From contig JALSPC010000071.1 in NCBI GenBank assembly GCA_026986155.1, positions 1 through 32,161 of the forward strand: a stretch of 32,161 nt of DNA, given 5' to 3'. Origin of the DNA: a bacterium. GTDB lineage: Bacteria; Desulfobacterota; S145-22. Under the pieces are notes generated by a model. The model ran no database searches. It was given only the letters and a program-made list of their open reading frames with translations, and had not been told where the DNA came from. Positions 21,726 through 32,161 of the stretch are shown piece after piece (the first letter of the stretch is position 1; every line of letters starts with the position of its first letter). The position numbers were made by a program, and so were the translations under genes.

Positions 21726-21747
21726 GGCAAGGCAGGGTTTGGAGGGG

Positions 21748-22386
21748 ATGATGGGCAGGATAAACCTGGTCATGGATGGCCGGCCCGTGCTGTCCTTTAG
21801 GATTGGGACATCCCTCACGATGGGCCGGGGCCTGGACAATGACTTGCGGATCAACGACCCAAGGGTATCCCGGCATCACTGTGTCGTCGAGAATGGGCGC
21901 CTGGGATTTGTCATTAGAGATTTGGATAGCAGCAACGGCACATTTGTGAATGGGAGACGCATAACAAAAACATCGCTTTTTGATGGTGATAAGATTCTCC
22001 TGGGCGATACAACACTCGCTTTTGAACAGGAAGACGAAGCGGTTCAGAGTGATGCGGCCGAACGGGGGGGAGATGCCGAAAAAAAGTTCTATCGATTGAA
22101 TGGCGTGGGAAGCTTTTCCCGGGAAGGTGTTTACCCGGATTCCCTGCGCGCAACCTTCAACCGATTGACAACCCTCTTCGAGATAGGCAACATCGTCAAC
22201 ACCTATCGTGACCCCGACGCGCTGGTCCAGGTGGTCCGGCGGCAGAATGTTAGCATCATAGACGCGGATAGGTATTATCTTCTCCTCAAAAACAGGGAAT
22301 CGGATACCTTGGATGTCGCGGCGGTTCATCCCGAGCAGGCTGGTGAGAATGGAGGTATGACGGAAATCTCCAGAAATCGGCTATGA
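21748..22386 (+). CDS. FHA domain protein with partial GAF domain (probable truncated FHA-GAF-HD-GYP protein)
   Basis: FHA motif LTMGRGLDNDLRINDPRVSRHHCVVENGRLGFVIRDLDSSNGTFVNGRRI; GAF-like LTTLFEIGNIVNTYRDPDALVQVVRRQNVSIIDADRYYLLLKNRESDTLDVAA. Orphan HD-GYP fragments follow. Confidence 0.8.
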   Translation: MMGRINLVMDGRPVLSFRIGTSLTMGRGLDNDLRINDPRVSRHHCVVENGRLGFVIRDLDSSNGTFVNGRRITKTSLFDGDKILLGDTTLAFEQEDEAVQSDAAERGGDAEKKFYRLNGVGSFSREGVYPDSLRATFNRLTTLFEIGNIVNTYRDPDALVQVVRRQNVSIIDADRYYLLLKNRESDTLDVAAVHPEQAGENGGMTEISRNRL

Positions 22387-22517
22387 GATTCTATCCAATG
22401 TCGAGTGGGGGGAAGATCGCCCGGAACACGGGAGCTCAGTTCGATCCGGCGGTCGTGGAGGCCATGAGGGTCTGGGGGAAGGACAGTGACGGCTGGGGAA
22501 GGGATGAAATCAGTTGA
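22366..22517 (+). pseudogene. HD-GYP domain remnants in two frames downstream of the FHA-GAF ORF
   Basis: Frame A (CCA GAA ATC GGC...): PEIGYEILSNVEWGEDRPE. Frame B (AAG ATC GCC CGG...): KIARNTGAQFDPAVVEAMRVWGKDSDGWGRDEIS*. Both resemble HD-GYP sequence (HPxxGxxIL... and GTQFDPxVVEAF), with the catalytic core missing. Confidence 0.65.
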
Positions 22518-22550
22518 ATTTTCTAGGAATTTACGTTTTACTTATCTGTG

Positions 22551-24483
22551 ATGGACTATCCTGAGATTTTTCTGCCTTTGAAACGGAAAAGCCGAGGGCG
22601 TTGGTTCCTGGTGGGGGGGATCGGCGTGGTTGCTTACCTGTTTTCCCTTTGGCAAGTGGGCGTCTGGACAAGGAAATACGAGATGCAGCGTATCAAGCGT
22701 GCCTCCCGCGAGTCTCTGAGCGTCTATGTCGGGGATCTGAAGAGCGAGCTTGACAAGTTCAAGGCCCTGCCGCTGATTCTCTCCAGGAATCCCCTGTTCG
22801 TAGATCTCGTGAGCCGGCCCTTCTCTCTGTCCCGCCAAAGGGACGTCAATCTGGAACTTGAAAGGGTCAACGGTCTTGCAGAGACTTCCGCAATCTATAT
22901 CCTGAACAGTCACGGCGTCGCCATCGCGTCGAGTAATTGGCGGGGCCCAGTTTCCTTCATCGGCGAGGACCTGAGTTTTCGGCCTTACTACCAGCAGGCT
23001 ATCCAAGGAAAACCGGGGCACTATTTCGCCCTTGGGACCACATCCAAGGTTCGCGGTTACTACTTCTCGGCCCCCATCTTTTTTGCTGGAGAAGTCGCGG
23101 GTGTTATTGTCGTTAAGGTTCAGATGCGGCGGCTGGAAGAGAATTGGTCGCATGGCTCTGAAAGGGTTGTTGTGACGGATCGATACGGGGTCATTTTCAT
23201 AACCAGTTATGCGCCTTGGAAGTTCTGTGTTCTCGGTCCCCTTGACGAAAAGACCATGGAGGTGCTGCGTAAAAGCCGTCGTTACGGGAATTTTCACCCG
23301 GAATGCCTATGCGCAACTCCAGTGAAGATCCGGGACGGGGATGCCGCGGTAATCCATATCCTGCGAGACATGCTTCCCGAATTCGAGCAAAGAGGGGAGA
23401 AAATGCCTGAGCGTGTTCCCTTTCTTCTCCAGTCCCAGGAAATGCCCGAAGCGGGCTGGACTGTTCACATCCTGTCCGACTTATCCCGGGTGGTTGAGAG
23501 ACATGGTTCTCCTGACGGGATCGATGCTTCTGGCACTTTTTCTTGGCTTTCTCTTGCTTTATTATCGGCGCCGCGCGCGCCGAGAGCGGCTTTTTCTGGA
23601 AAAGGAGTCAAGAAGAGTGCTGGAACAAGCTAACAGGGCGCTGGAGCAGAAGGTTCGCAAACGCACCCGGGAATTGACGGAGATCAACGCTCGTCTGCGC
23701 GCGGAAATCGATGAACGACGAAGGACAGAGGAAGAATTGCGGGCCACGCAGGAAGGCTTGATCCAGGCGGGTAAGCTCGCGGCGATAGGTCAAATGGCCG
23801 CCGGTATAACCCATGAGATCAATCAGCCCCTTTCGGCCATTCAGATGTATGCGGACAATGCCCTCGTTTTTCTCGACCGGGGACATGTCCAGGATGTTCG
23901 GGCCAACCTGCGGAATATTACTGAATTGACCGGAAAAATGGCGGAGATAACGCGCCAACTCAAGACCTTCGCGCGCAAGTCCCCGGGGAGGGAGGTACCA
24001 GTCCCCATCGTGCAGGTATTGAGAAACGCGCTGGTTCTGCTCGAAAATAGAGTTAAGAAATTGAATGCGTGCGTCAAGTGTAATCCCGCTGTATGGGACG
24101 ATGATCTTATGGTGTGGGGGGACCCAATCCGCCTAGAGCAGGTTATGGTCAATATCCTGAAGAACAGCCTGGATGCCGTCGCAGGGTCATCCGTCCGAGA
24201 AATCTCCATAACTCTCCAGGAATTTCAGGAGAAGGTTGTCATCCATATCCGGGATACCGGAGATGGAATCGACCCGCGGGATTTGAACAGGCTGTTCGAA
24301 CCGTTTTTCAGTAACCGTAAAGACGGAAAAGGGTTAGGACTGGGGTTGTCCCTCTCACTGGGAATCGTGAAGGATTTCGGGGGAATGATCCGTATGGGCA
24401 ATCATCCCGACGGCGGCGCGATGGCCACCATCGAACTTCGCCGTTATACGGCAAAGAAAAAGGATGAAGTATGGAAAACGTGA
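22551..24483 (+). pseudogene. DctB-like sensor histidine kinase interrupted by a frameshift near 23490-23503
   Basis: ORF 22548-23633 gives a TM plus dCACHE sensor ending ...WTVHILSDLSRVVER; the +1 frame continues MVLLTGSMLLALFLGFLLLYYRRRARRERLFLEKES...GKLAAIGQMAAGITHEINQPLSAIQMYADN...GLGLGLSLSLGIVKDFGG. Confidence 0.8.
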
Positions 24484-25817
24484 GGGGATCCGTCATTTTT
24501 GTGGATGACGACGAATATGTTTGCCGGGCCGTGGAGCAGACCTTGAGGTTGGCCGGTTACGATGTCGTCACGTTCAGGAATCCCCGCCAGGCCATGAAGT
24601 TGATTTCCCGGGACTGGCCGGGGATCCTGGTGACGGACGTGAGGATGCCCGGGGTCGACGGGTTTTCTCTTCTTGATTGGACACTTCGGCGGGATCCTGA
24701 TCTTCCCGTGCTTCTCGTCACGGGCCACGGGGATATCAGTATGGCCGTGGAGGCCATGCGAAAAGGCGCCTATGATTTTATCGAAAAACCCCTGTCGGCG
24801 GATAGGTTTGTGGAAATTGTCGCACGCGCCTTGGAAAAGCGGGGGCTTATTCTCTATAACAGGAAATTGCGGGCGGAGGTCGCCCGGCGGAGTGGCATCG
24901 AATCGGTTATCCTCGGTCGCAGTGAACGCATGCGTCGCCTGCGCGAAAAGATTCGGGCCATTGCCGGCACCAATGTGGATGTCCTCATCGTTGGCGAAAC
25001 GGGGACGGGTAAAGAGCTCGTCGCCCGGTGCCTGCATCGCTACAGCCACCGGAGGGAGCGTCCATTCATTGCCATAAATTGTGGGGCTATTCCAGAGAGC
25101 ATTATCGAGAACGAACTTTTTGGGCATGACCCCGGAGCGTTTACAGGCGCTGATCGTATCTATATCGGGAAGATTGAGCAGGCCGACGGGGGAACGCTGT
25201 TCCTCGATGAGATTGAGTCCATGCCCTTGGTTCTCCAAGTCCGGTTGTTGCGCGTTCTGCAGGAGCGGTCCATCGAGAGATTGGGAGGAAGCAAGACCAT
25301 CGAGCTCGATTTGAGGGTTATTGCGGCGACAAAACGTAACCTTCTCGAAGCCAGTGAAAAGGGAGAGTTCAGGAGCGACCTCTATTATCGCTTGAACGTT
25401 GCCAATCTCGTGATTCCTCCCCTCAAGGACCGGGTCGAAGACATCCCCGCCCTGTTCATTCATTTCCTGCAGAAAGCGGCGAGTCGGCTTGGAAGGCCGG
25501 TTCCTGATATGGAAAGGATAGATTTACAGCCATTCATGCTGTACGCCTGGCCGGGAAATGTTCGCGAATTGCAGAATGTGGCGGAGAGAATGGTGCTTGG
25601 GATGGAGGATACCCTGCCCCCTTTGGAGGATGGAGAAAGCGTCGGACAAGGATCTCTGCAGGAGCGGGTGGAATCATTTGAAAGATATCTTATCGAGGAG
25701 GAACTCAAACGCCGGAAGGGGAATATTACGGCCACCTACCGGGCGCTTGGCCTGCCCAGGAAGACCCTCTACAATAAGATGAAAAAATATGGTCTTTTCA
25801 AAAAAGATTATTCCTGA
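24471..25817 (+). CDS. DctD/NtrC-family sigma-54-dependent response regulator
   Basis: Receiver SVIFVDDDEYVCRAVEQTLRLAGYDVV...LVTDVRMPGVDG; Walker A GETGTGKE; GAFTGA motif intact (ELFGHDPGAFTGA); Fis-type HTH NITATYRALGLPRKTLYNKMKKYG. Overlaps the kinase end. Confidence 0.93.
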   Translation: MENVRGSVIFVDDDEYVCRAVEQTLRLAGYDVVTFRNPRQAMKLISRDWPGILVTDVRMPGVDGFSLLDWTLRRDPDLPVLLVTGHGDISMAVEAMRKGAYDFIEKPLSADRFVEIVARALEKRGLILYNRKLRAEVARRSGIESVILGRSERMRRLREKIRAIAGTNVDVLIVGETGTGKELVARCLHRYSHRRERPFIAINCGAIPESIIENELFGHDPGAFTGADRIYIGKIEQADGGTLFLDEIESMPLVLQVRLLRVLQERSIERLGGSKTIELDLRVIAATKRNLLEASEKGEFRSDLYYRLNVANLVIPPLKDRVEDIPALFIHFLQKAASRLGRPVPDMERIDLQPFMLYAWPGNVRELQNVAERMVLGMEDTLPPLEDGESVGQGSLQERVESFERYLIEEELKRRKGNITATYRALGLPRKTLYNKMKKYGLFKKDYS

Positions 25818-26065: not shown

Positions 26066-26081
26066 TGGTATGAATTATGCA
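26066..26081 (+). promoter_or_regulatory. Candidate sigma-54 promoter TGGTATGAATTATGCA
   Basis: Matches TGGCAYRNNNNTTGCW with GG-N10-GC spacing and two mismatches; upstream of the SBP-DAACS operon and downstream of a sigma-54 activator gene. Confidence 0.55.
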
Positions 26082-26256: not shown

Positions 26257-27183
26257 ATGAAACGTGCGATCATGAAATTCCTGGGACTTTGGGCAATTGT
26301 TCTTTGTTTCGTTCTTTGCTTCGCGGTGTGCTTTGCGGTGGTTTCCGCTGCGGGGGAGATCGTGACGCAATCCCCCACACTTCAGAAGATAATGGCTCAG
26401 AAGGTCATCCGCGTGGGGGTCAACCCTAAGTTCAAACCCTTTTCGTTCAAGAAGGGTGAACAACGCGAGGGAGTGGATATCGATATTGCCAAACTCCTCG
26501 CCAAGAAACTCGGGGCCCGCGCGGAAATCGTTGTTCCCCACACCTTTTCAGATTTGATTCCCATGCTTCGAGGAAATGAAATCGATATCATCATGGCGGG
26601 GATGAGCATTACTTTCGAGCGGCAGAAGGTGATAGATTTTACGAATGCGTATTTCGATACTGGGCTTTCCATTCTACTCAACAAAATAACGACCACTAGG
26701 CTTGGGATTTCTGCGGCGACGAGTTACCGAGCCCTACATGACGAACTTGCACGCAGCGGCAAATGGAAAAACCTGATTGTGGCCGTTACGAAGGGCAAGG
26801 CGCCGGAACGTATCGTTCCACGGTTTTTCCCAGGGGCCAGGATCAAGGCATTTCCCACCAATGAGGCGGCGGCGGAAGCCGTTCTCAAGGGTGAAGCAGA
26901 TATCATGGTTCACGACGAGATGTTTCTCAAGGTATGGTTGAAGGAGAACGCGAAACGGGCGAGTTTTCGTGTGGTCGTGCTGGATCCTCCTTTTAAACCT
27001 GATTATTACGGTTTCGCCATTCGGAAGGGGAACCAGGATTTCCTGAATCTTCTGAATGTCTTTGTTTTGGAACTCCGGGCAAACGGATATGTGGATCAGT
27101 TTATCGGGGCTTATCTCCCGGTTAAATCCAGGGTAACCATTCGAAGTTTCAATATTACCGAAGATTATTATGGAGGGGACTAA
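26257..27183 (+). CDS. Periplasmic substrate-binding protein, SBP_bac_3 family
   Basis: Signal peptide; VIRVGVNPKFKPFSFKKGEQREGVDIDIAKLLAKKLGARAEIV...MLRGNEIDIIMAGMSITFERQKVIDFTNAYFDTGLSIL; RBS GGAGGAGGT before ATG 26257. Confidence 0.9.
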   Translation: MKRAIMKFLGLWAIVLCFVLCFAVCFAVVSAAGEIVTQSPTLQKIMAQKVIRVGVNPKFKPFSFKKGEQREGVDIDIAKLLAKKLGARAEIVVPHTFSDLIPMLRGNEIDIIMAGMSITFERQKVIDFTNAYFDTGLSILLNKITTTRLGISAATSYRALHDELARSGKWKNLIVAVTKGKAPERIVPRFFPGARIKAFPTNEAAAEAVLKGEADIMVHDEMFLKVWLKENAKRASFRVVVLDPPFKPDYYGFAIRKGNQDFLNLLNVFVLELRANGYVDQFIGAYLPVKSRVTIRSFNITEDYYGGD

Positions 27184-27184
27184 G

Positions 27185-28528
27185 ATGAGCGGCGCCGAAA
27201 AAAAGAAGAAGGGTTTGGACCTTCAGTGGAAAATTCTCATTGGAATTATCTTGGGTATTGCCCTTGGGATTATCTTGAATTTGACAGTGGGATCGGGCGT
27301 CACTTCCGGGCCCTTTTATTACCTGAAAACCCTGTTCAAATACGGTGGGGATGTTTTCATACGGCTCTTACGCATGCTGATAGTTCCTCTCGTGTTTGCT
27401 TCCATCTATATGGCTGTCGCCAATCTCGGGGATGTCCGTAAGCTTGGCCGGATCGGGGGGAAGACCATCGCCTATTACATGCTCACGACCGCCTTGGCGG
27501 TCTTGGTGGGGTTGATTGTCGTCAACATTATCAATCCGGGGCTGGGAATCGACAAAGGGGCGTTATCCGCGCTACACATCGGGACAGAGGTGCCCGCCAA
27601 GGTTGCGAAGCAGGGCGTGGGTCAACGGAGCCCGGTTATTATCATTGTGGATACCTTTGTGAACATGATCCCGAAAAATGCCGCCGCGGCCTTCGCTAAA
27701 GGAGATGTCCTTCAGATTATCTTCTTCACGATTTTTCTGGCGGTTTTCGCTTCAATCGTGGGGAGCGATTGCGAGCCAATGACCCGGGTTATCAACGCTG
27801 TTGACCGAATCATGCAAAAAGGAATCATGGCGATCATGGCGATCGCTCCCTACGCCATCTTCATGCTGGTTACGGCCATCTTCATGGATCTGGGGTTTGA
27901 GGCCCTGAAAGCGCTTGGCAAATACGGTCTGACGGTGATCCTCGGGTTGTTCATTCACGGGTTCATCACCCTGCCCATCCTCGTTCTTGTTTTTGGGCGG
28001 TATAACCCATTCCGCCTGATCAAGGCCCTTTCGCCGGCCATGATGACGGCATGGTCAACGGCATCGAGTGCCGCCACGTTGCCCATAACCATGAGCAATC
28101 TGGAAAACCGGGCCGGGGTGGACAGCCGCATCGGAAATTTTGTGCTCCCGCTGGGGGCGACCATCAATATGGATGGAACCGCTTTGTATGAATCGGTCGC
28201 TGTGATTTTCATCGCCCAGCTTCTTGGGGTGCACCTGACGACGGGGATGCAGGTAGTCATTTTTATTACCGCTTCACTGGCGGCCATCGGAGCGGCGGCG
28301 ATTCCCGGAGCGGGGCTGGTCACCATGGGTATCGTTCTGACCGCTGCAGGCCTCCCTCTGGATGGTATCGGCTTGATTCTTGCCATAGATCGAATCCTTG
28401 ATCAATTTCGGACGGCTATCAATGTCTGGGGCGATGCGACGGCGGCCGTCGTCGTGGGGCGCGGCGAGGACGCGATCAGGGAAGTGACGGAGTTGGATGT
28501 TCCGGCGGCCGAAACCGTATCAGCATAA
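27185..28528 (+). CDS. DAACS family dicarboxylate/amino acid:cation symporter (DctA/GltP-like)
   Basis: FIRLLRMLIVPLVFASIYMAVANLGDVRKLGRIGGKTIAYYMLTTALAVLVGL; AWSTASSAATLPITMSNLENRAGVDSRIGNFVLPLGATINMDGTALYESVAVIFIAQLLG; AAIPGAGLVTMGIVL. GGAGGGG RBS before ATG 27185. Confidence 0.94.
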   Translation: MSGAEKKKKGLDLQWKILIGIILGIALGIILNLTVGSGVTSGPFYYLKTLFKYGGDVFIRLLRMLIVPLVFASIYMAVANLGDVRKLGRIGGKTIAYYMLTTALAVLVGLIVVNIINPGLGIDKGALSALHIGTEVPAKVAKQGVGQRSPVIIIVDTFVNMIPKNAAAAFAKGDVLQIIFFTIFLAVFASIVGSDCEPMTRVINAVDRIMQKGIMAIMAIAPYAIFMLVTAIFMDLGFEALKALGKYGLTVILGLFIHGFITLPILVLVFGRYNPFRLIKALSPAMMTAWSTASSAATLPITMSNLENRAGVDSRIGNFVLPLGATINMDGTALYESVAVIFIAQLLGVHLTTGMQVVIFITASLAAIGAAAIPGAGLVTMGIVLTAAGLPLDGIGLILAIDRILDQFRTAINVWGDATAAVVVGRGEDAIREVTELDVPAAETVSA

Positions 28529-28543
28529 AAAAGGAGGGTACTG

Positions 28544-28825
28544 ATGGAATATCCGAGACAAATACTCGATTTCATGTTGCTCCATGTCACGGAACCCTGG
28601 TCTTACAAGGGGAAAGTCATGCAGAGCGCACAATACATCCGCCTTGGCACTCGTCTGAGTCTCCATATCCAGATGATCACGGATAAGGCGGGCAACCAGG
28701 AATACAGCTTACGTATCAGGGACAGTATCGTTTACGGAGGTATCAAGACCCTGGATGAGGCGATTACCATCGCAGGTGAAATTATCGAAGAGAACAAAAT
28801 GTTTGTGGGGGAAAAGGTCATCTGA
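28544..28825 (+). CDS. Small protein of unknown function (93 aa), third gene of the SBP-DAACS operon
   Basis: AAAGGAGGG RBS 5' of ATG 28544; 15-nt gap from symporter stop; followed by a terminator; no recognised family. Confidence 0.75.
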   Translation: MEYPRQILDFMLLHVTEPWSYKGKVMQSAQYIRLGTRLSLHIQMITDKAGNQEYSLRIRDSIVYGGIKTLDEAITIAGEIIEENKMFVGEKVI

Positions 28826-28863: not shown

Positions 28864-28916
28864 CGGACGGACCGTAAGAAATCGCACCCCTTAACGGTCC
28901 GTTCTTCTTTTTGTAG
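28864..28916 (+). terminator. Rho-independent terminator
   Basis: Stem ACGGACCGT-AAG / CTTAACGGTCCGT (one bulge; core arms 28867-28875 and 28894-28902) followed by TCTTCTTTTTG. Confidence 0.75.
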
Positions 28917-29104
28917 GAAAGAGGCACTCGTTTTCATGTAAATCCGAGAAACATAGGGTTATGTTTGTTGTTGATGGCTTCCCGTTTTCTACGATACTTT
29001 AATGGTTTGTTTCAGTGGCATCTTGCTTTTCCAAAAAGATTTTGGGATATAATGATCCCGGGGGTGGAAGCGAGGTGGGAAAGAGAAAAGCATGTTTTCC
29101 GAGA

Positions 29105-30373
29105 ATGGCCCTGGTGTGGCAGGAACTCTACCGGGAGGAGGTTTGCGACGTTCCGACCGTCGTCACTAAAGCCTTGAGAGACATGGCGTTGCGTGATCGG
29201 ATACGGCCCGGAATGCGGGTCGCGGTGCCTGCGGGGAGCCGGGGGATCGACCGGATTGACGAGATCATCAAGGCGGTCGTCGATTTTTTGAAGGATCGGG
29301 GCGCGCGGCCTTTCATCTTTCCCGCCATGGGAAGCCACGGGGGCGCGACACCAGAGGGCCAACTTTCCATCCTTGCGCACTACGGCATCACGGAGGCGGC
29401 GATGGGCGCGCCGATTCTTGCCTCCATGGAGGTAGTGGAAGTGGGTGAGACGGACCGGGGTGTGCCAGTCTTTCTTGACAAAAACGCGAGTGAGGCTGAC
29501 GCCCTCGTGGTTATCAACCGGGTGAAGACGCACACCAAGTTCGATGGCGAGATCGAAAGCGGCCTGTTCAAGATGATGGCCATCGGGATGGGAAAGCACC
29601 GGGGTGCCAGCGTGTATCACCGCGCGGCCGTGGAGCACGGGATGGAGACCATCATCGTGGATGCCGGTCGGATGGTGGTTGAAAAATGTCCCGTTCTTTT
29701 CGGGCTTGGAATCGTAGAGAACGGCGTGGACCGCATCACGCGGATCGCGGCCTTCACGCCGGAGAAAATGCTGGAGGGGGAAAAAGCGTTGCTCCGGCTT
29801 TCCAAGAAAGTCATGGCGAAGATCCCCTTTGACGACTTGGACCTGCTGATTATCGACGAAATCGGGAAGAACATCAGCGGGACGGGCATGGATACCAAGG
29901 TTGTGGGACGCCACAGGGATCTCATCGGGGATTTCTGGATCCATCCCCATCCCAAACGCATCTTCGTGCGGGACCTGACGGAGGCCACGGAGGGGAATGC
30001 CACGGGGATCGGGCTGGCCGATTTCACAACCCGGAGATGCATTGACAAAATAGATATGAGAAAAACGGCGGTCAACTGTATCACGGCTCTGTCTCCCGAG
30101 AAAGCGGCGCTGCCGCTCTCCTTTCCGACGGACCGGGAAGCCGTTGGAACCGCGCTCGAAACGGTGGGCCTGAAGTCCGTCGACGAGATGCGGGTCGTCC
30201 ATATCAGAAATACCCTTTCCCTCGAAACCCTTTACGTTTCGGAGAGCTTGGAGGCCGAAGTGGCGGGGAATCCGAGGCTGTCGTTTCTCTCGGGTTTTTC
30301 CGGGATGCCGTTCGATGCCTCGGGAACCCTGAAGGTCTCCTTTCACGGGCCGGAAGGGAAAGGAACCGCGTAG
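29105..30373 (+). CDS. LarA-like / lactate racemase N-terminal domain (DUF2088) protein
   Basis: MALVWQELYREEVCDVPTVVTKALRDMALRDRIRPGMRVAVPAGSRGIDRIDEIIKAVVDFLKDRGARPFIFPAMGSHGGATPEGQ...VINRVKTHTKFDGEIESGLFKMMAIGMGKHRGA. Start uncertain (track gives 29015). Confidence 0.75.
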   Translation: MALVWQELYREEVCDVPTVVTKALRDMALRDRIRPGMRVAVPAGSRGIDRIDEIIKAVVDFLKDRGARPFIFPAMGSHGGATPEGQLSILAHYGITEAAMGAPILASMEVVEVGETDRGVPVFLDKNASEADALVVINRVKTHTKFDGEIESGLFKMMAIGMGKHRGASVYHRAAVEHGMETIIVDAGRMVVEKCPVLFGLGIVENGVDRITRIAAFTPEKMLEGEKALLRLSKKVMAKIPFDDLDLLIIDEIGKNISGTGMDTKVVGRHRDLIGDFWIHPHPKRIFVRDLTEATEGNATGIGLADFTTRRCIDKIDMRKTAVNCITALSPEKAALPLSFPTDREAVGTALETVGLKSVDEMRVVHIRNTLSLETLYVSESLEAEVAGNPRLSFLSGFSGMPFDASGTLKVSFHGPEGKGTA

Positions 30374-30619: not shown

Positions 30620-32161
30620 ATGGGTTACAAAGTGCGGTTTGAGCCGTCCGGAAGAGAAATAGACCTTGATCCCGACGAAACGATCCTCCAGGGAGCCATG
30701 TCGGCGGGGGTGCATATCAACGCCTCTTGCGGCGGGAGCGGGACCTGCGGGAAGTGCAAGGTGAAAATCGTGAAGGGAGAAACGACCCTGCCTCCCATGC
30801 CGCAATTACAGAAGTGGGAGATCGAGCAGGGATACCGACTGGCCTGTATGACAAAGCCCGTATCGGATATCGTGGTGGAGATTCCCGTTGAATCTCAGAT
30901 AGATCGGACGGTGCTCAGGAGGGAACGTGCGGGATTCGCCCGGGTGCTGTCACCCCAGGACATCAACCAGTTGGTGCAAGGCTGGTCTATCGACCCGACG
31001 GTGTTCAAACGTTATCTGGAACTGCCGCCTCCCACCAAGGAAGACAACATGAGCGACCTGGCGCGCATCTACCGTTCCCTGAAACAGCAATTCGGGTTTG
31101 AGGGGATTTCGGCCGACTTCCGAATGATCAAGAAGATGAGCCAGTTGCTCCGGGATGCGGATTGGAAGGTGACCGTGACGATGGTTCTCACCCGCAAGGG
31201 ATACAAACTCATCAATATAGAGCCGGGGGACACCGCGGAACACAACTATTCTATCGTCATCGACATAGGGACCACGACCATCTTCGGCCAGTTGCTCAAC
31301 CTCCACGAGTGCAAGGTCTTCGGCTGTCCGGGGCTGGACGTGGATGGAGCCGAGCGCTACACTCTGGCCATTGCCTCGGATTACAATCCCCAGATAAGCT
31401 ACGGCGAAGATGTTATCAGCCGCATCGTCTACGCCCTGAAGCCGGGGGGATTGGAGCGCCTCCAGGAGGTGGTGGTTCGCTCCATCAATAAGATTATCAA
31501 GGAGCTCCTCGTCATGGCGAAGGTGGAGAGGAGCCACGTGTCCCACATGGTCATCGCGGGCAATACGACCATGACGCAGCTCTTTCTGGGACTAAACCCA
31601 AAATATCTCCGGGAGGACCCCTACGTGCCCACAGCGAATTTTCTCCCGCCCGTCCGAGCGGTCAACGCGGGGATCGAACTGGGAGACCATGTCCACATCT
31701 ACCTCTTTCCCATGGTGGCCAGTTACATCGGGGGAGACATCGTATCAGGCGTGCTGGGTTCCGGGATTTTCCAGCGGGAGGACTTGACGCTCTTCATGGA
31801 TATCGGGACCAATGGAGAGATCGTTCTGGGCAACAAGGATTGGCTGATGAGCGCCTCCTGTTCTGCCGGTCCCGCCTTCGAGGGGGGCGGCATCAAGTTC
31901 GGGATGCGCGCCACGCGCGGGGCCATCGAGCAGGTCCGGATCAACCCGGCCACCTACGAACCCATGCTGATGACTATCGGGCGGGCCAAGGCCAAGGGGA
32001 TCTGTGGGTCGGGCCTCATCTACACAGTGGCCGAACTCCTGGAGACAGGCGCCCTGGACCAGAATGGAAAGTTCCGCCACGACCTGCCCACGAAGCGTAT
32101 CCGGAAGGGGGAGGACGGCTACGAATACGTCCTGTCGTGGGCCCGTGAGAACGCCATCGAC
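30620..32161 (+). CDS. Reductive activator of corrinoid enzymes (RACE/RamA-like): N-terminal [2Fe-2S] ferredoxin plus ASKHA domain; truncated by window end
   Basis: Open frame of 514 codons from ATG 30620 to the edge (not in ORF track). NASCGGSGTCGKCKVKIVKG...RLACMT; YSIVIDIGTTTIFGQLLNL...DYNPQISYGEDVISRIVYAL...VIAGNTTMTQLFLGL...LFMDIGTNGEIVLGNKDWLMSASCSAGPAFEGGGIKFGMRA. Confidence 0.92.
   Translation, partial: MGYKVRFEPSGREIDLDPDETILQGAMSAGVHINASCGGSGTCGKCKVKIVKGETTLPPMPQLQKWEIEQGYRLACMTKPVSDIVVEIPVESQIDRTVLRRERAGFARVLSPQDINQLVQGWSIDPTVFKRYLELPPPTKEDNMSDLARIYRSLKQQFGFEGISADFRMIKKMSQLLRDADWKVTVTMVLTRKGYKLINIEPGDTAEHNYSIVIDIGTTTIFGQLLNLHECKVFGCPGLDVDGAERYTLAIASDYNPQISYGEDVISRIVYALKPGGLERLQEVVVRSINKIIKELLVMAKVERSHVSHMVIAGNTTMTQLFLGLNPKYLREDPYVPTANFLPPVRAVNAGIELGDHVHIYLFPMVASYIGGDIVSGVLGSGIFQREDLTLFMDIGTNGEIVLGNKDWLMSASCSAGPAFEGGGIKFGMRATRGAIEQVRINPATYEPMLMTIGRAKAKGICGSGLIYTVAELLETGALDQNGKFRHDLPTKRIRKGEDGYEYVLSWARENAID

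Follow-up and report, generated by a model that had tools for sequence, protein, structure and literature searches.

Why should a solute-binding protein (SBP) of family 3 be encoded directly in front of a DAACS symporter, with a small protein behind it? A sequence-only reading of this Desulfobacterota contig, whose 32,161 nt are here called the window, had seen in the arrangement a candidate undescribed transport system under sigma-54 two-component control. It had offered two explanations, either an SBP-dependent secondary transporter or a periplasmic sensor serving a DctB-like kinase encoded upstream. The features of the locus are listed in Table 1.

Table 1. Features of the transport locus and its upstream region in the window.
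Feature	Position	Strand	Details
DctB-like histidine kinase gene, frameshifted near 23490-23512	22548..24483	+	ORFs 22548-23633 and 23413-24483
NtrC/DctD-type sigma-54-dependent response regulator	24471..25817	+	intact; Response_reg, Sigma54_activat, HTH_8
-24/-12-like promoter site TGGTATGAATTATGCA	26066..26081	+	equivalents in most loci linked to the kinase and regulator (HK-RR)
SBP_bac_3 solute-binding protein	26257..27183 (including stop)	+	308 aa; PF00497, E 1.2e-29; cleavable-type signal sequence
Shine-Dalgarno of the symporter inside the C-terminal codons of the SBP	27168..27184	+	TAT GGA GGG GAC TAA G ATG
DAACS/SDF (GltP/GltPh-type) symporter	27185..28528	+	447 aa; PF00375, E 2.9e-122 over residues 13-425
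P93, third core gene, soluble family without known relatives	28544..28825	+	93 aa; 26-member alignment
Rho-independent-type terminator hairpin with T-run, 3′ of P93	~28865..28912	+	-21.7 kcal/mol, z -3.3

The architecture proposed for the unit agrees with the coordinates. A single nucleotide separates the SBP stop from the symporter (SDF) ATG at 27185, the 93-aa protein (P93) follows the symporter after 15 nt, and the terminator expected behind it is present as a hairpin with a T-run. The absence of ABC genes was also borne out, as tblastn with permease and ATPase sequences found no homologue of either in the 32-kb window. The PF00497 domain, the fold and the signal sequence place the first protein in SBP family 3. 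Its AlphaFold model has the two-lobed SBP fold, and the nearest structures are amino-acid SBPs.

Contigs from about 85,000 genomes were scanned for relatives of the symporter, which returned 28 members of its clade (67-89% identity) and 7 distant DAACS proteins. With the window the clade has 29 members, which are not independent samples. An SBP lies directly upstream of the symporter in 26/27 members with a readable upstream side (window counted), and P93 lies directly downstream in 26/28 members with a readable downstream side. The symporter of L063 (= G008; L063/L040), which is 67% identical, stands alone with neither SBP nor P93 nearby, and L061 has a clade symporter without an adjacent P93; L063/L040 and L061 are natural controls for SBP-independent function. 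A family-3 SBP was found within 1.5 kb in none of 27 ordinary DAACS loci (L012-L038), using a profile that also detected all known SBP controls. A chance neighbourhood is ruled out by this contrast between 26/27 clade loci and 0/27 ordinary ones.

In the tree the symporter clade has 100% support and a long stem, and three well separated groups can be recognised: the main Desulfobacterota, the Alphaproteobacteria, and a distal group comprising L058-L060 and L075. Seven of the hosts are Alphaproteobacteria (L052-L057, L072; GC 56-65%) and the remainder are mostly Desulfobacterota. A phylum sample of 395 genomes contained only two close relatives of the symporter (G107, G008), and in G107, where it is 88% identical, the same five genes occur in the same order between different flanks. 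By tblastn, the only ABC gene near any module locus is a distant ATPase on an unrelated strand in L043. The survey for an SBP_bac_3-DAACS-93aa synteny free of ABC genes, which the sequence-only reading had proposed, was run and shows this synteny conserved in two phyla. SBP, SDF and P93 form a conserved and dedicated unit of three genes; it is translationally coupled, and ABC genes are absent. In keeping an SBP and a carrier together, with no other membrane partners, it has the genetic linkage expected of the functional class of SBP-dependent secondary transporters.

The bond between SBP and symporter is visible at the level of codons. In 22/26 loci the two genes overlap or leave a gap of 1-4 nt, and in the short-gap loci the Shine-Dalgarno of the symporter lies in the last SBP codons (..Y-GGA-GGN-D-stop, with GGG-GGN in the Alphaproteobacteria). 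In the short-gap homologues the ..YGGD tail keeps these codons, GGA GGN or GGG GGN. Because the ribosome-binding site is thus written into the SBP codons, it is a direct sign of translational coupling. In the draft assembly of Desulfosarcina cetonica JCM 12296 (L064, 4053-5386) the symporter is frameshifted at about residue 143, and despite this its ATG lies 1 nt after the SBP stop.

Evolutionary distances tell of the same bond: they are strongly correlated between SBP and SDF (r=0.94, permutation maximum 0.36), and also between SDF and P93 (r=0.81) and SBP and P93 (r=0.75), with all permutations at or below 0.40. Every one of the 26 SBP homologues is beside a symporter. In the phylum sample the module SBPs, all adjoining an SDF gene, score ~525 bits, against ~167 bits for the next SBPs. 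Of these four next-best proteins three are beside an ABC permease and one is an orphan. By sequence comparison, the module SBPs form a distinct clade of their own. An orphan SBP_bac_3 of lipoprotein type was noticed in L087 (1456-2325); it shares the MVHD motif, has no permease within 1.4 kb and is perhaps another non-ABC binding protein.

Two candidates for a docking site between SBP and symporter were considered and rejected. The conserved C-terminal ..DYYGGD of the SBP could be read as a docking peptide, but its conservation is largely due to the embedded Shine-Dalgarno; loci with a long intergenic gap do not have it, and in the AlphaFold model it is disordered. The periplasmic loops of the symporter clade are longer than in most DAACS, yet they also occur in the SBP-less L063 and in some others, and since L063 has them the enlargement is not SBP-specific. 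No natural SBP-SDF fusion was seen among the loci found. The N-terminus of the symporter lies on the cytosolic side, the SBP in the periplasm.

Conserved residues in both proteins bear on the likely substrate. The closest solved relative of the symporter in alignments is an aspartate transporter (E 1.6e-106), with which it shares the DRILD..RT..NV.GD, NMDGT, HP1 and HP2 motifs. Its full-length SDF domain with HP1, NMDGT, HP2 and TM8 motifs makes it a DAACS member. TM8 residues D402, D406, R409, T410, N413 and D417 are retained in the window protein, and we take D406, R409, T410, N413 and D417 to be the equivalents of GltPh D394, R397, T398, N401 and D405. As in GltPh, the arginine would bind the side-chain carboxylate and D406 the amino group, and the TM8 residues would also serve Na+. 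DctA-type carriers are without several of these residues. The residues found in TM8 predict a place in the acidic amino-acid subgroup of DAACS.

In the SBP, R122 and D220 are invariant across the 26 homologues; presumably these hold the alpha-carboxylate and the alpha-amino group respectively, as in amino-acid SBPs. Moreover, K181 is present in all 26 module SBPs, where related SBPs have T, S or V, and so is K247, which is T in most related SBPs. These two extra lysines on the pocket side would suit an acidic ligand, and a reasonable first guess from these signatures is that the ligand is glutamate or aspartate. One carrier of the module (locus L048) is 'Candidatus Desulfobulbus rimicarensis', for which an enrichment of glutamate/aspartate uptake genes relative to free-living relatives has been reported (PMC7117923); the genes meant may differ from the module.

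The third gene deserves more weight than it had been given. Its position was as described, and an alignment of 26 members reveals 22 invariant columns; P93 is as constant a member of the unit as the SBP, and had been underrated by the sequence-only reading. It has no hydrophobic segment and no signal peptide, and its predicted structure (pLDDT 85) consists of a small sheet and a helix at the C-terminus. Neither Pfam and NCBIfam nor the PDB, by sequence or by fold, nor viral folds gave a significant match; within Pfam the closest were NdhM (0.016) and DUF190 (0.054), which are not significant and were rejected. Searches of ~1,100 further genomes, covering the Desulfobacterota, the order of G107, and the family and class of the alphaproteobacterial carrier G622, found no P93 outside the module apart from one marginal match, and none was found on plasmids. 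In the order of G107 there were matches in 9/243 genomes: seven beside the symporter, one at a contig edge (L079) and the marginal one (L084, E 7e-4), which was rejected as a true P93. In the family (1/199 genomes) and class (1/289) of G622 the single match was that carrier itself. Most simply, P93 would be a cytosolic protein that partners or regulates the symporter.

Upstream of the unit, a DctB/DctD-like pair and a -24/-12 promoter had been proposed. Both genes are present, but the kinase ORF of the window is frameshifted, which had been missed, and this may be either a real inactivation or an assembly error. Its homologue in L039/L041 is one intact 639-aa ORF, and the DctB-type sensor is assigned through the intact homologue, which matches DctB structures 3e4o and 3by9 (E ~1e-33). 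Homologues of the response regulator, 60-70% identical, are upstream of the SBP in ~10 loci. The whole pair is directly upstream in ~10 Desulfobacterota loci, mostly with a good -24/-12 site before the SBP. Taken singly the promoter site TGGTATGAATTATGCA is weak, as 5% of shuffles equal its score, but equivalents are found 5′ of the SBP in most homologous Desulfobacterota loci. Alphaproteobacterial loci and those of the distal group, read over 2.9-6 kb upstream, retain SBP-SDF-P93 and are without the pair, and the -24/-12 site is missing from nearly all loci that lack it. Because pair and promoter are confined to one sub-lineage they are accessory; because SBP-SDF-P93 is kept without them, the core is the three genes, and serving that kinase is not the sole purpose of the SBP. 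A second, different two-component pair occurs directly 5′ of the SBP in L046, L047 and L050; in L047 it separates the SBP from the DctB/DctD-like pair.

Three other readings of the unit were weighed. The symporter could be self-sufficient, like GltP or DctA, and the SBP a periplasmic co-sensor for the DctB-like kinase or another receptor, the operon coupling sensing to uptake. The upstream pair with its -24/-12 sites in ~10 loci fits this, as does L063, which carries the symporter only, and activation of sensor kinases by SBPs is known (PMC11113362). However, the alphaproteobacterial and distal Desulfobacterota loci keep the three genes with no such kinase adjacent, the kinase already has a DctB-type ligand domain of its own, and both the stop-to-start coupling and the distance correlation tie the SBP to the symporter, not to the kinase. 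The second explanation of the sequence-only reading is weakened by this, and we regard a sensory role as rather unlikely.

Less likely still is mere co-regulation of SBP and symporter. In that case the SBP would feed an ABC permease for amino acids whose gene lies elsewhere, and the symporter would take up the same substrate by a parallel route of low affinity. An ABC permease can be shared by orphan SBPs, and there are five other SBP_bac_3 matches in the genome. Against this, the SBP belongs to a dedicated clade with invariant residues missing from related SBPs, it is co-inherited with the symporter across phyla, and the ATPase of L043 is the only ABC gene near the module. It is very improbable that the SBP-fold protein is a periplasmic enzyme, for instance a lyase resembling cyclohexadienyl dehydratase (CDT), whose product the symporter would import. 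CDTs evolved from SBPs, and ancestral CDT-type proteins are the nearest solved sequences; however, AncCDT-1, the top match, is described as a protein that binds amino acids, no module SBP departs from the amino-acid-SBP residues R122 and D220, and the substrates of SDF carriers are small acidic amino acids or dicarboxylates.

Genomic support for the SBP-dependent DAACS elevator comes from the conserved synteny in the absence of ABC genes, from translational coupling and co-inheritance, from the separate SBP clade and from the ligand-type signatures. SBP, symporter and P93 are probably parts of one such uptake system, with P93 as an accessory. GltPh and EAAT transporters are not known to depend on an SBP; the standalone symporter of L063 means that this symporter type may function without a partner, and together with the lack of any fusion protein among the loci found it limits our confidence. 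In the proposed mechanism the exported SBP would close on an acidic amino acid, most likely L-glutamate or L-aspartate, at low concentration, and the loaded SBP would dock on the periplasmic face of the trimeric elevator. The ligand would then pass to an outward-open protomer, whose transport domain would move it inward with Na+ (or H+). The outcome would be high affinity and one-way uptake, as SBPs give TRAP transporters and as has been proposed for TAXI-GltS. P93 would act in the cytosol, most likely binding or regulating the inner face of the symporter. In one Desulfobacterota lineage the DctB/DctD-like pair and -24/-12 promoter would turn the unit on when the DctB-type sensor detects a C4-dicarboxylate-like ligand.

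The system closest by working principle was described in 2025. In TAXI-GltS of Bordetella pertussis (BP0403/BP0402) the genes of an SBP and a Na+/glutamate symporter of the elevator type are translationally coupled, membrane genes of TRAP or ABC systems are absent, and the arrangement is kept in disparate bacteria (PMC12344293). Linkage, ligand binding, fusions and modelling led to the proposal that the two proteins work together, and coupling in transport is still a proposal (PMC12344293). In both systems an SBP gene is translationally coupled to that of an elevator-type symporter; they differ in that the module has SBP_bac_3 and DAACS where TAXI-GltS has TAXI and ESS/GltS, its gene order is reversed relative to that of B. 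pertussis, it includes P93, which TAXI-GltS does not have, and fusions are known for TAXI-GltS and none was seen for the module. Because both protein families differ, with neither a TAXI SBP nor a GltS/ESS carrier present, the module lies outside that class.

TRAP and TTT transporters are likewise secondary, ion-driven carriers fed by a soluble SBP, and TRAP is an elevator. The module, however, has no DctQM or TctAB genes, its SBP belongs to PF00497 and not to DctP, TAXI or Bug, and its carrier is a DAACS; Pfam gives SBP_bac_3 and SDF in place of the DctP/TAXI SBP and DctQM that define TRAP. The module belongs to neither class, nor to the ABC importers. GltPh, GltP and DctA (DAACS, TC 2.A.23) share the fold family and the substrate and cation motifs of the module symporter, but work without an SBP, whereas here the genes of SBP and P93 are its fixed companions. 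Among ABC importers for amino acids, those of the PAAT type use SBPs of the same family (GlnH/HisJ-type), yet the permease and ATPase genes that accompany such an SBP are not found near the module, and its SBP clade is distinct, with K181 and K247. The regulation of dctA by DctB/DctD resembles that seen here in having a DctB-type kinase, an NtrC-type regulator and a -24/-12 site before a DAACS gene; the module adds SBP and P93, and other module lineages lack the pair.

No earlier description of an SBP_bac_3-DAACS system was found in the open-access literature, outside whose scope most subscription papers lie. The term undescribed holds to that extent, while the principle has its precedent in TAXI-GltS (PMC12344293). 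The arrangement points to a class of systems for nutrient uptake that has so far gone undescribed. Somewhat less firmly, but still on balance, we favour a further class of SBP-dependent elevator in which an SBP_bac_3 feeds a symporter of the DAACS/GltPh fold, with P93 as a new family of cytosolic subunits and the module spread between phyla. Few elevator transporters are understood as well as the DAACS carriers (GltPh, EAATs), which are regarded as acting alone. If true, an SBP-dependent member would test the 2025 proposal that elevator mechanics permit SBP use, for which further classes were called for (PMC12344293), and would do so on a fold for which solved structures are plentiful and assays ready to use. 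Such a member would also join the world of SBPs to the fold of the human glutamate transporters, and the default assignment of family-3 SBPs to ABC importers would need correction. P93 introduces an uncharacterised small family as a fixed member of the system.

An empty site is found in G003, a genome of the window's own family: at locus L104 Kup, a 513-aa FHA/GAF/HD-GYP gene and LarA are adjacent and the five genes are absent. The module therefore behaves like a single block, acquired or lost at this position. In the window the FHA gene before the transport module (21739-22517) is decayed, with an N-terminal half and short C-terminal remnants. A LarA-like nickel-pincer isomerase (29015-30373; NCBIfam NPN_iso_grp_22) is found beside a RACo/AcsV-type corrinoid reactivation protein (30620-32161), a neighbourhood that recurs in the family relatives L106 and L108, with a different orientation in L108. 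In several Desulfobulbaceae, genes of oxidative stress lie beside the module, 3′ of P93 (L045, L046, L047, L050, L074). By appearance these are rubrerythrin, peroxiredoxin, catalase-peroxidase and Fur/PerR, and a catalase-peroxidase gene is also found ~6 kb from the module in L041 (14252-15337).
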